Shown piece by piece: positions 1 to 62,107 of a DNA stretch of 64,000 nucleotides. A program made the translations under genes and the position numbers. Position 1 is the first letter of the stretch, and each line of letters begins with the position of its first letter. The stretch comes from Marinobacterium sp. LSUCC0821 (GTDB lineage Bacteria > Pseudomonadota > Gammaproteobacteria > Pseudomonadales > Balneatricaceae). The notes under the pieces were generated by a model. The model was given only the letters and a program-made list of their open reading frames with translations, was not told the origin of the DNA and made no database searches. Location of the stretch: NCBI RefSeq assembly GCF_012848475.1, contig NZ_CP051666.1:2073501-2137500 (forward strand). Direction: 5' to 3'.

Positions 1-590
1 ATGTCCTCTCTGCTCAGGTTCACGGTTTTGTGGAGACTGGAAAGGGGTTAAAACGTTCTGGTGCACAGCCAGGCGATCTGATTTTTGTCAGTGGCTCTTT
101 AGGTGATTCACGTGCTGGGCTTGCTACCCTAAAGGGCGAGTTAGACGCTAATGAGTATCTATTAACTCGTTACCTGCGCCCGACACCAAGAGTTGAGCTT
201 GGAGTGGCTTTACGCGATATTGCTTCAGCGGCGATAGATATCTCAGATGGCTTATTGGCAGATCTTGGGCATATTCTCGAGCAATCTCAGATGGCTGCTG
301 AATTAGAGTGTAGCCAGTTGCCGATTTCAGAAGTGCTGGCGCAATCTGTCTCTAAGCCCTATGCGGATCATTGGGCATTAACGGGTGGTGAAGATTTTGA
401 ACTCTGCTTTACAGTGCCCTCTGAAATGAGAGCTTCTGTAGCAGAGCTGGCTAAAGCCCTCTCTTTGAATCTGACCGAGATCGGCTGCATAGTTGCTGGT
501 GAGGGGGTTCATCTCACCGATAATGGAGTCTCTATAGCTCTTCCTGAGACATTCGGATTTGACCATTTTCACAAGCAAGGTAACCCTTGA
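1..590 (+). CDS. thiL: Thiamine-monophosphate kinase, C-terminal part
   Basis: ThiL phosphorylates thiamine monophosphate to thiamine diphosphate in the cytoplasm. The reading frame is open from the first bases of the window, so the N-terminal part lies outside; about 195 C-terminal residues remain of the roughly 320 usual for the family. Recognisable ThiL segments are the QVHGFV stretch and RRSG-like KRSGAQPGD near the start, DISDGLLADLGHI in the middle and TGGEDFELCF towards the end, which belong to the AIR-synthase/ThiL nucleotide-binding fold. The stop is one base before the pgpA start, so the two are co-transcribed, the usual gammaproteobacterial order. The family call is secure; only the start is missing. 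Confidence 0.93.
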   Translation, partial: VLSAQVHGFVETGKGLKRSGAQPGDLIFVSGSLGDSRAGLATLKGELDANEYLLTRYLRPTPRVELGVALRDIASAAIDISDGLLADLGHILEQSQMAAELECSQLPISEVLAQSVSKPYADHWALTGGEDFELCFTVPSEMRASVAELAKALSLNLTEIGCIVAGEGVHLTDNGVSIALPETFGFDHFHKQGNP

Positions 591-39762: not shown

Positions 39763-40077
39763 TCAACTCTCAGAGAAGTAGTTGATCGTATCCATGTTTT
39801 TATGTGGTATGCCGATCATGTCTATTGTCTCGTGACCTATTAGATAAAACACTACGTGCTGACCTTTGGGAAGGCTGTAGTAGCCCTCGCAGATATCTGT
39901 TCTATGCCTACCCAAGAATGGATCCTCTGCTAACGATTTGAAGCAGGTCTCTAAACTCTTTAGATAGTGGTTGCGCTGACTATTACCCCAAGTTCTTTCA
40001 GTGTATCGGCCAATATTTTTTAGATCGTCGTATGCGCGGGGTGTGACTCGAACTCGTCGAACCAATTTTTTTGACAT
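39763..40077 (-). CDS. ParE/RelE family toxin
   Basis: A 104-residue basic protein with the ParE pattern VRVTPRAYDDLKNIGRYT near the start, FLGRHRTDICEGYYSLPKGQHVVFYLI in the middle (landmarks GRHR, YYS, HVVFY) and a C-terminal strand with DMIGIPHKNMD. ParE toxins poison gyrase. Its ATG overlaps the antitoxin stop (TGATG), the typical type II arrangement. Confidence 0.87.
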   Translation of the reverse strand: MSKKLVRRVRVTPRAYDDLKNIGRYTERTWGNSQRNHYLKSLETCFKSLAEDPFLGRHRTDICEGYYSLPKGQHVVFYLIGHETIDMIGIPHKNMDTINYFSES

Positions 40078-40325
40078 CAGGACTCCGCATCCAAGTCGGC
40101 GATCAATGAATCCATCGTAAAGTCCTCGACGAACTTTCCATTTTTGGCTTGTAATGCTCCTTCAGAAAGATGTGCACGAAGAGCTTCTATCTTGCTCTTG
40201 CGTTCTTCCATTGCTCTTAAAGCATCACGAACTACTTCGCTTGCGGATCCGTAACGACCGCTAGAAATTTCGTTTTTGATGAACGCTTCCCAATGTTCAC
40301 CTAGGCTTAGGCTGGTAGTTGCCAC
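40077..40325 (-). CDS. ParD family antitoxin
   Basis: An 82-residue protein with the ribbon-helix-helix start ATTSLSLGEHWEAFIKNEISSGRYGSASEVVRDALRAMEE (landmarks SLG..W, GRYGSASEVVRDALR) and an acidic C-terminal tail that should wrap the toxin. It lies just outside the left end of the ssrA island, about 340 bp away. Confidence 0.88.
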   Translation of the reverse strand: MATTSLSLGEHWEAFIKNEISSGRYGSASEVVRDALRAMEERKSKIEALRAHLSEGALQAKNGKFVEDFTMDSLIADLDAES

Positions 40326-40435
40326 AATTCACCTCATATATTCATATTTGTTAATAATGAATATAGTTTTATGGTGGTTGTAATTCAAGCATGGAGCACA
40401 TTTAGTGTTTTCATGTGTGGCTTCTCTTAGTTCGA

Positions 40436-40620
40436 GTGGCGGGTTTGATGCAGGCCTTCCTGGCGCTCGGTCTGACGGAGCAGACTCTGGTAAATAAAAG
40501 TGGCGGGTTTGATTCGGGGCATCCTGCCCCTCACCCCTTTGGGGCAACACTTTGTGTTGTCCAAAACTACATCCTTGTAGTTTTGTCGAACCCGCTCCGC
40601 GGGCTCTGTAACCCGCCACA
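40436..40620. repeat. Multi-hairpin structured element
   Basis: GTGGCGGGTTTGAT occurs at 40436-40449 (from the preceding base pair) and again at 40500-40513. From the second copy, GTGGCGGGTT (40500-40509) pairs with AACCCGCCAC (40610-40619), closing a domain with five successive hairpins: GGGGC-ATCCT-GCCCC, CCCC-TTT-GGGG, CAACAC-TTT-GTGTTG, CAAAACTACA-TCCT-TGTAGTTTTG and CCCGC-TCC-GCGGG. The first copy is followed by two shorter hairpins and is not closed. It codes for no convincing protein and lies next to the terminator of the inferred original ssrA 3' flank. It may be a folded RNA or a repeat-family member. Confidence 0.6.
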
Positions 40621-40626
40621 AAAATT

Positions 40627-40660
40627 AAAAAGGGCCACTCCCTTCGGGGTGGCCCTTTTT
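40627..40660. terminator. Strong bidirectional terminator, probably the native ssrA terminator
   Basis: AAAAAGGGCCAC and TGGCCCTTTTT arms flank a TCCCTTCGGGG loop region, giving a long GC-rich stem with A and T runs on both sides. On the minus strand it follows the copied ssrA 3' end at 40670-40683 by about 9 bases, the distance expected for the terminator of the uninterrupted gene. Confidence 0.85.
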
Positions 40661-40664
40661 AATT

Positions 40665-40683
40665 TTGTATGGTGGAGGTGGCG
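40665..40683. other. Left attachment site (attL) of the ssrA island
   Basis: TTGT-A-TGGTGGAGGTGGCG matches 61743-61761 at 18 of 19 positions and reproduces the last 14 bases of the tmRNA including CCA. It lies between the displaced terminator and the integrase gene. Confidence 0.75.
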
Positions 40684-40899: not shown

Positions 40900-42093
40900 G
40901 TGCCAAAAAAAGCTAAAGAATTAAGTGCCGCTGAAGTGCGACGACTTACTGATCAAGGACGTTATTCAGTGGGAGGGGTGGCCGGCCTGCAAATGCTGGT
41001 CTCAGCAACCGGAGCACGCTCGTGGGTTTTGCGAACACAAATGGGACAAAAGCGCCGTGATATAGGTTTGGGTGGATTCCCTGATGTTACTCTAGCTGGT
41101 GCTAGAGACAAGGCGAGAGAGTTACGCGAAAAAATATCTAACGGTATTGATCCTGTGCTAGAGAGGAAAGCAGCACGTGATGCAATGCGAGCCAGGCAAG
41201 CCAAAGTGTTAACATTCAAAGAAGCGGCATACCTATGCCATAACGCGCGCAAAGATGAATATAGTAATGTTAAGCACCGTCAGGATTGGATCAATTCATT
41301 AGAGCGTCATGCGTTCAGTGTAATAGGTGAGCTGTCTATCGATGCAATTGAGGTGCCACACGTTCTTAAAGTACTTGAACCAATTTGGAAAACCAAAACT
41401 GAAACCGCGACTAGGGTGCGCCAGCGTCTAGAGTCTGTTTTGAGCTGGGCAACAGTTTCTAAGTACCGCAGCGGCGATAATCCTGCGCGTTGGGCCGATA
41501 ATCTAAGTGAGTTACTGCCTACTCCCAACAAAATTCGTAAGGTAAGACACCATAAAGCATTACCCTGGCAAAAGGTGCCAATGTTTATGGTTGATCTACA
41601 ACAGCGAGAGGGTATTGGCGCACGTGCTCTGGAATTCATCATATTAACTGCTGCGCGCTCAGGTGAGGTTCGCTTCGCTACCTGGGATGAAATCGACTTG
41701 ACTGCTAAGCTATGGACCGTCCCAGCTGATCGAATGAAAGCTCGCAAAGCTCACAATGTTCCGTTATCTGGTGCTGTTATAGAGTTACTTGAAGGTTTGC
41801 CCCGTATAGAGGGTAGCAATCTATTATTCACAGCACCGAGAGGGAATGCTTTATCAGATATGAGCATTTCAGCAGTATGCAAACGAATGGAAGTTGAGGC
41901 TACTCCTCATGGGTTTCGGTCATGCTTCAAAGATTGGGCACGGAGTCGTACTGCTTATCCCGATGAAGTTTCCGAACTTGCCCTTGCTCATGTTAACAAT
42001 GATGCTACACGCGCAGCTTATGCACGGGATGAACTACTAGAACAACGTTCAAGACTAATGAGTGATTGGGCTAAATTCATAAATTCTTTATAA
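40900..42093 (+). CDS. Tyrosine-type integrase (P4-like)
   Basis: A 397-residue site-specific recombinase with an N-terminal DUF4102-type arm-binding domain (VGGVAGLQMLVSATGARSW, GLGGFPDVTLAGARDKARE) and a C-terminal catalytic domain. Catalytic residues are visible as Arg in TAARSGEVR, HGFR, His in LALAHVNND and Tyr in TRAAYARDE. It starts with GTG, 217 bp inside the left attachment site. Enzymes of this kind insert islands at tRNA or tmRNA 3' ends, so it is the likely agent of insertion into ssrA. Confidence 0.93.
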   Translation: MPKKAKELSAAEVRRLTDQGRYSVGGVAGLQMLVSATGARSWVLRTQMGQKRRDIGLGGFPDVTLAGARDKARELREKISNGIDPVLERKAARDAMRARQAKVLTFKEAAYLCHNARKDEYSNVKHRQDWINSLERHAFSVIGELSIDAIEVPHVLKVLEPIWKTKTETATRVRQRLESVLSWATVSKYRSGDNPARWADNLSELLPTPNKIRKVRHHKALPWQKVPMFMVDLQQREGIGARALEFIILTAARSGEVRFATWDEIDLTAKLWTVPADRMKARKAHNVPLSGAVIELLEGLPRIEGSNLLFTAPRGNALSDMSISAVCKRMEVEATPHGFRSCFKDWARSRTAYPDEVSELALAHVNNDATRAAYARDELLEQRSRLMSDWAKFINSL

Positions 42094-61742: not shown

Positions 61743-61761
61743 TTGTTTGGTGGAGGTGGCG
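61743..61761. other. Right attachment site (attR) in the ssrA 3' end
   Basis: TTGT-T-TGGTGGAGGTGGCG matches 40665-40683 at 18 of 19 positions. The last 14 bases are the 3' end of the intact tmRNA gene. Confidence 0.75.
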
Positions 61762-62107
61762 GGTTTCGAACCCGCGTCCGTCAATCCTCTGCCTCAAGCT
61801 CTACATGCATAGACATCTCTATTAAATTAACCCGTCACGAGCCGAGAGTCAGGCTGTTATGGGCGAGCCTTTTTAGTGTTTAACCCGTTGGCTTAAGGCG
61901 AAGACGCGGGGCGATTCTATCTCATATGACACTGCCGAAACTCTGAGTTATAGACACCTTAGAGGGCAGCGCTAGCAGGCTTAAGCTGCTAGAGCGTAGT
62001 TATCGTCGTTTGCAACTATAACTGTGTGATGAGGGATTAACGAGAATCATCACATTCTCGACATGCACCTAAGGGTTCGTAATCAGCGTCGAATCCAAGT
62101 CACCCCC
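61748..62107 (-). ncRNA. ssrA: Transfer-messenger RNA
   Basis: A 360-base tmRNA. The 5' acceptor strand GGGGGTG pairs with CACCTCC before ACCA at the 3' end, and GGGTTCGAAACCC gives the T arm. The tag reading frame at 61981-62013 encodes ANDDNYALAA and stops with TAA, one residue different from the E. coli tag. It rescues stalled ribosomes together with SmpB, encoded next door. The 3' end is complete despite island insertion. Confidence 0.97.

Follow-up and report, generated by a model that had tools for sequence, protein, structure and literature searches.

Within the window, by which we mean the whole 64,000-nt stretch of Marinobacterium sp. LSUCC0821 DNA analysed here, positions 40500-40619 hold on the minus strand a closed hairpin domain that sequence comparison identifies, with good support, as a divergent trailer unit of the RtT type belonging to ssrA, the tmRNA gene; the full reading, which includes the release of the unit as a stable multi-hairpin RNA, we consider quite probable. 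On the minus strand, past the terminator-like repeat of ssrA, stands a second, partial copy of the 3' end of the gene's T-arm and acceptor, in which an extra hairpin and four conserved hairpins replace the short T-loop and the domain is closed by a new 5' strand. The same element occurs in T-arm copies that follow several tRNA genes, both here and in other Gammaproteobacteria, and a tRNA-free form is dispersed in the genome. As far as the available parts of the literature go, RtT is known from descriptions of the Escherichia coli tyrT operon and of RNAs close to tRNA genes, and a search of the same material found no link of RtT to ssrA and no tmRNA host. The data show a widespread element that carries a copy of the end of the tRNA or tmRNA gene preceding it, whichever that is, and whose four hairpins are kept by compensatory change; they tie together a dispersed repeat and two separate Rfam families, and they make roles such as CsrA binding and RNase P release testable for an RNA class of little-known function.

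The hairpin domain and its probably displaced host gene

The features of the region are as follows.

40436-40499, minus: decayed second unit, read from the sequence and a 34-nt direct repeat
40500-40619, minus: complete RtT-like unit (outer stem, hairpin 0, h1-h4), from folding (z -7.94), our model R1 and Rfam RtT
40500-40509, minus: 3' strand of the outer stem, AACCCGCCAC, which recurs unchanged in the ssrA 3' end
40516-40530, minus: hairpin h4, with a GGA loop, from the fold
40534-40544, minus: hairpin h3, from the fold
40545-40559, minus: hairpin h2, from the fold
40562-40585, minus: hairpin h1, from the fold, with the 12-mer TACAAGGATGTA at 40568-40579
40588-40606, minus: hairpin 0 (h0), GAGCCCGC(GGA)GCGGGTTC, from the fold
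40610-40619, minus: outer stem 5' strand GTGGCGGGTT, pairing perfectly with AACCCGCCAC
40621-40666, minus: terminator-like, T-rich inverted repeat whose 21-nt arms are 95% complementary, located between the unit and the ssrA end copy
40670-40683, minus: copy of the last 14 ssrA bases, CGCCACCTCCACCA (exact match), the far att-like end of an island
40900-42093, plus: tyrosine integrase of the island (PF22022, PF13356, PF00589)
61748-62107, minus: ssrA (tmRNA), the original host gene (ARAGORN; Rfam 200.9 bits)

The perfect 10-bp outer stem GTGGCGGGTT/AACCCGCCAC (40610-40619 and 40500-40509) encloses five hairpins, which follow one another on the minus strand as GAGCCCGC(GGA)GCGGGTTC, CAAAACTACA(AGGA)TGTAGTTTTG, CAACAC(AAA)GTGTTG, CCCC(AAA)GGGG and GGGGCA(GGA)TGCCCC. 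The first-pass annotation had described such a closed domain, and we found it at 40500-40619, with 40436-40499 as a partial copy. Folded as RNA over exactly 40500-40619, the minus strand reached -66.3 kcal/mol (z -7.94) and the plus strand -61.8 kcal/mol (z -7.59), and none of 200 shuffles was as stable in either case; when the flanks were included (40430-40625, plus strand), the minimum-energy fold nested differently (z -5.55). The minus strand folded as DNA was also far more stable than shuffles (z -5.77).

That the outer stem recalls a T-arm, as had been remarked, proved apt: AACCCGCCAC at 40500-40509 is the 3' half of the ssrA T-stem with the beginning of the acceptor 3' strand, and the 3' arm of hairpin 0 copies the T-stem 5' half GCGGG followed by TTC (T-stem 5/5). 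The unit is without a full acceptor/CCA copy and ends CGCCAC-TTTT. In the decayed second unit we read an h4-like hairpin, GCC(AGGAA)GGC, and a second copy of ATCAAACCCGCCAC; a direct repeat of 34 nt, 82% identical, joins it to the complete unit, and the two share GTGGCGGGTTTGAT at 40436-40449 and 40500-40513. The genome-wide search proposed earlier for this 14-mer returned exact copies in the 2.36-Mb genome at this locus only (two, both in 40436-40513) and two matches with one mismatch elsewhere. Model R1 gave no match to 40436-40499 at E 0.01.

The earlier placing of the domain next to an old ssrA flank agrees with the CGCCACCTCCACCA copy at 40670-40683, which stands beside the unit on the strand of ssrA and precedes the R1 match by 75 nt. 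The tyrosine integrase lies at the unit-proximal end of the 21-kb stretch that separates the two ssrA ends. This island (40670-61761, 21 kb) at the ssrA 3' end encodes, by Pfam, the integrase and a DUF3987 protein, and its cargo ORFs look by eye like a two-component system, a tripartite tricarboxylate transporter and an FAD protein. The ORF upstream of ssrA resembles smpB by eye, and on the other side of the unit a ParE/ParD toxin-antitoxin pair adjoins it at 39763-40325 (Pfam PF05016, PF03693). A simple scan found one minus-strand terminator-like site (40645-40629; 0.8 in shuffles) and four promoter-like sites in the region (1.1 in shuffles), one of which (40758-40731, minus, 10/12), inside the island, points at the unit with the terminator-like repeat intervening. 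A repeat of this kind also lies on the path from ssrA to the unit, so that transcripts starting at ssrA would have to read through it to express the unit.

BLASTN found relatives in all five other genomes of the genus that were searched (genomes and loci are given below by our own G and L labels). In the sister genome G005 the unit follows ssrA and a terminator-like repeat without interruption, at a distance of 72 nt; in G003 and G002 the unit is preceded by a copied ssrA end, and ARAGORN reported no tmRNA in the stretches taken from these two genomes; in G001 the ssrA end in front of the unit is kept only in part; and in G004, where the upstream ORF is transposase-like by eye, no ssrA end was found before the unit. 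From these arrangements, the unit is probably an old neighbour of ssrA in the genus and the island a later arrival, which would have integrated at the ssrA 3' end and displaced the gene by 21 kb from its unit. Outside the genus, RtT loci follow tmRNA at 51 and 53 nt in G028 and G015 (L252, L257), both with an eroded 3' copy, and at 30 nt in G104 (L347), with the full CCTCCACCA and a complete CCGCCGCCTCCACCA end copy; one locus of a second Rfam family, AaHKsRNA22 (L357), lies 76 nt behind tmRNA.

Compensatory change and copying of the host gene's end

To follow the family we used R1, a model built from ten units of the own genome; the window unit, which R1 scores at 83.5 bits (40506-40595), is itself a seed, while SerA, SerB, Pro1 and one of two Gln units are not. 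The covariation set comprised 59 matches from 62 loci, aligned to the model. Of its 1190 cells 93.0% pair, against 66.7% after shuffling and 31-44% with partners slid by 1-3 columns, percentages that lean upward because the alignment was fitted to the model and ten of the 59 rows are its seeds. Cells changed on both sides numbered 283, compared with 74.8 ± 7.0 by shuffling (0/500 equal), and such changes occur at all 23 pairs. The six ssrA-linked orthologues of the genus, a set that omits a second G002 copy, gave 119/137 paired cells, a count lowered by h2 being out of register in four rows (1/5 pairs each), and 11/23 pairs with double changes. Across the 59 matches the core hairpins covary strongly. 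The proposal of a structured RNA, in the sense of a conserved structure, withstood the homology and covariation parts of the check set for it at the outset: homologues are present and covariation is strong.

We then compared each unit with the gene in front of it. The window unit agrees with ssrA at 5/5 T-stem and 9/12 3' strand positions, and its own host ranked first. Over 58 rows with a same-strand tRNA or tmRNA within 700 nt upstream (the window's ssrA was assigned by hand), the similarity of T-stem and acceptor to the own host summed to 714, against 525 ± 11.1 with hosts shuffled (maximum 568; 0/2000); six elements are counted twice in this sum, once by each model, the tandem units among the rows are related, and such a host was lacking in another 27 rows. 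The own host was strictly first in 28 of the 58 rows and among the top three in 35. An earlier score, a single ungapped 18-nt probe, had placed the host strictly first in only 11 of 40; scoring by the T-stem and a 12-nt 3' strand was adopted after that result, and its 12-nt part was then applied class-wide. There, 30 RtT loci were read (51 genomes had a match), 26 of which have a host, always within 80 nt, and the sum was 297 against 227 ± 7.1 (0/2000); the Rfam RtT model contains a tRNA end, and shuffling among hosts is independent of that. For AaHKsRNA22, with a host at 6 of 23 loci and three own-genome loci excluded, the same comparison was not significant, 178 of 2000 shuffles reaching the observed sum.

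At least ten of the copied 12 nt agree with the host in 24/26 class-wide rows, 14/20 RtT rows of relatives and 12/36 R1 rows, and NCCA follows them directly in 22/26, 14/20 and 10/36, respectively; by a looser count, CCA anywhere near the end, the class-wide RtT rows give 26/26. Since both counts are higher outside the genus, the copy is most complete there. The longest run of the outer stem averaged 7.46 bp over 97 rows (G-T pairs allowed, one element counted twice), compared with 6.30 ± 0.12 when strands were re-paired between elements, and the stem extends to 12-18 bp in L324, L328, L330 and L333, up to a full acceptor/T minihelix. Nine dispersed copies showed no such excess (5.78 vs 5.90). 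By sequence, then, units tend to copy the tRNA or tmRNA end of their own host gene.

Relation to RtT, predicted release and the GGA loops

On the host strand, the Rfam model of RtT (RF00391) matches the window unit end to end in sequence and structure (21.9 bits, E 0.021-0.048, model 1-130, minus strand 40632-40492), with several pairs flagged non-standard. Two of the 14 fetched stretches matched, namely two Gln units at 39.9 and 36.5 bits (E 1.2e-5 and 8.2e-5). The gathering score of 45 was reached neither by the window nor by the best own unit, and as the unit lies under this threshold it is not a member by that measure and is termed a variant. AaHKsRNA22 (RF02902) matched seven of the 14 stretches at 19.4-35.7 bits, five of them at 26.9-35.7 (E <=0.025) and two near E 1, and its cut-off of 39.8 was likewise not reached by the window (17.0) or the best own unit (35.7); the Phe, Arg-CCG and Arg-ACG units matched neither model. 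Among 57 genomes, our own and relatives, RtT was found in 24 at E <=0.1 and in 17 above its cut-off; among 274 genomes of the class, RtT gave matches in 51 at E 0.001 (18 above cut-off) and AaHKsRNA22 in nine (one above cut-off).

With RtT RNA, known as rttR from the E. coli tyrT operon, where it lies directly behind tyrV, the unit shares its position behind a gene whose 3' end it copies, the tandem copies, the full-length alignment and the order of parts: an outer stem with the copy of the tRNA 3' end, a hairpin ending GGTTCGA, a hairpin chain, and GCCCGAAGGGC-GAG-hairpin-CGAGTAATCC. It differs in that the host is tmRNA, that the score is below cut-off and that h1 is longer, forming an insert in the RtT alignment; the units of the genus carry GGA in the h1 and h4 loops, whereas most units read in other genera do not. 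AaHKsRNA22 has the same h1-GAAC-h2-h3-GAG-h4-GAGTA core but occurs in a tRNA-free form in G307. Because it also matches our units, RtT and AaHKsRNA22 may, judged by sequence, be one superfamily. G307 has the most AaHKsRNA22 matches (13: L354, L363, L366, L369, L371-L379), all of them lacking a same-strand tRNA in the 700 nt upstream; this is apparently a dispersed lifestyle of the common core.

The function of the unit and its excision by tRNA-processing enzymes are what we infer, the latter from the minihelix design and by analogy with E. coli rtT, whose release during tRNA processing serves as the model. The copied acceptor/T minihelix, often with CCA, would let RNase P and 3' nucleases excise the unit, which would be kept because read-through transcripts of tRNA and tmRNA genes yield a stable multi-hairpin RNA. 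In the part of the source available, RtT is described as released from tRNA operon transcripts and as having been connected with the stringent response, and in Actinobacillus northern blots gave signals for two RtT RNAs located close to tRNA genes (PMC4986893); another source, equally partial, reports that RttR had no effect on E. coli biofilm (97 ± 9%; PMC4606813). Several observations weigh against the trailer-unit reading: no own-genome unit attains the RtT cut-off, fewer than half of the rows rank the own host strictly first, acceptor copies are often eroded, and nine of the 24 genomic matches described below have no same-strand tRNA nearby.

The loops suggest candidate CsrA binding. GGA occurs in h1 of 30 and h4 of 32 of the 40 non-dispersed genus units and in h2 and h3 of one each, counts that are not independent because the units are related; in the six ssrA-linked orthologues it is kept in h1 (6/6) and h4 (5/6) while the stems change. 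The window unit has GGA in the h0, h1 and h4 loops, the several GGA loops that mark CsrA-titrating RNAs. Both the h1 12-mer TACAAGGATGTA and the pattern TACARGGATGTA, of which the window has a single occurrence (0.01 expected), resemble the CsrA SELEX consensus. The genome has csrA, and the RsmZ model gives the window a weak match (17.0 bits, E 0.033), far under its cut-off of 44. We therefore offer tentatively, while thinking it rather doubtful, that the GGA loops of h1 and h4 (in the window also h0) may bind CsrA and that tRNA and tmRNA trailers may act as a distributed sponge, a role that would add to the RtT-type trailer explanation and not replace it. Hairpin-loop GGA is common to CsrB/RsmZ-type RNAs and the rrA/B/F sRNAs of E. 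coli rRNA-operon trailers; the latter, a precedent by their trailer origin, use GGA motifs to bind CsrA, and their influence on known CsrA phenotypes is no more than modest according to the part of the source available (PMC8144298). The window unit differs from the CsrB/RsmZ type in its RsmZ score, and the CsrA link comes from the loops. Against the proposal, other-genus units mostly lack GGA in these loops (h1 2/10, h4 1/10), the nine dispersed copies carry it away from tRNA genes (h1 6/9, h4 7/9), and the loops could simply be inherited, the GAA loop of h3 being conserved as well. The accessible portions of the literature searched did not describe GGA in two conserved loops of this genus's units. 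A bolder version, speculative and in our judgement unlikely, is that the RtT-like units behind tRNA and tmRNA genes of the genus form a multi-locus CsrA-sequestering RNA family freed from host read-through by acceptor/T-minihelix mimicry; if so, the output of stable-RNA genes, tmRNA included, would set free CsrA.

Copies elsewhere and alternative explanations

In the own genome R1 has 24 matches at E <=0.1, in keeping with the mobile repeat family suggested at first sight: 15, including the ten seeds, are linked by position to a tRNA or tmRNA gene and nine are dispersed. At E 0.001, matches were found in 31 of 99 family genomes. Twenty stretches of the own genome were read for up to 380 nt past their tRNA clusters, and the parts occurred in the same order behind Ser-GGA, Gln-CUG, Pro-UGG, a Met gene, Arg-CCG, Phe and Arg-ACG. 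Two of the 15 linked matches lie upstream of the intact gene, inside a decayed gene copy, and the dispersed match at 741413 is near a tRNA gene on the opposite strand. A clean T-loop insertion is seen at 1749924 (L300), with the decayed tRNA-Arg body still upstream; around this position an array of decayed tRNA-Arg-like copies precedes the intact Arg-CCG gene. A small hairpin element would have entered T-loops and spread. Matches in plasmid and phage collections were short or partial and in no case covered 80% of the query, and a 16-mer scan of genome contigs returned mostly unrelated genomes among the matches listed, as expected of a T-arm-like word.

The family might instead be a selfish palindromic DNA element of the REP or MITE kind that enters hairpin loops such as T-loops and REPs and has no RNA function, its covariation reflecting selection for single-stranded hairpins in transposition; we regard this as possible, though we lean against it. 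With REP/BIME and MITE repeats the units share dispersed palindromic copies and REP mosaics, several of the nine dispersed matches lying beside or within REP-like palindromes, and rtT-like sequences are placed among BIMEs in the part of PMC2965389 available. In copies of the tRNA-Ser 5' half from three species (L170, L178, L287) the element stands after GGTC of the D arm, and in G009, which has at least 44 R1 matches, a longer repeat bounded by TIRs encloses the hairpin core (L405-L418); of the 14 copies read, 13 begin TA(A/G)CAGGTCGTTGAAAA and 13 end CAACAGCCTG(T/C)TA. The stability of the minus strand as DNA fits as well. The units differ from such repeats in copying the host T-arm and in their regular position behind tRNA and tmRNA genes, and the position behind ssrA conserved in the genus, the retained loop sequences and the orientation along the host gene speak against the idea. 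The sole Y1 transposase found in the genome, a lone RAYT-like gene with its own REP family (L323), was considered as mobiliser and rejected: it is flanked by a different repeat, GGTCACC...GGGGAGGTTC, unlike the REPs beside dispersed units, and the palindromes that flank this gene are not those of the unit.

A role at the end of transcription, as a second rho- or structure-dependent stop insulating downstream genes from strong ssrA and tRNA transcripts, seems to us quite unlikely. Linked units are mostly downstream of their genes, those of Ser and Phe between two terminator-like repeats, and tyrT has a rho-dependent stop; yet a terminator-like repeat already precedes the window unit, and the copied acceptor end, CCA and conserved loops would be left unexplained. 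That the T-arm copies are decayed att sites of ssrA islands, or attC-like folded recombination sites, is very improbable, even though an integrase island does occupy the ssrA 3' end here. Both the 5' complement strand and the conserved hairpins would be missing from a plain att copy, and units stand directly behind an intact tmRNA gene (L173, L252, L257, L347) and behind many tRNA genes; these contiguous arrangements largely refute the att reading, which we rejected, and since related units follow contiguous tmRNA in G005, G015, G028 and G104, the chain of recombination sites considered in the first-pass annotation finds no support.

Downstream of tRNA-Met, we also observed tandem repeats resembling tRNA-Met 3' halves with intact-looking ends (L220, genome 1440000-1443200; L224, 1696-2000); these are possibly tRNA fragments or pseudogene arrays and apparently a separate matter.
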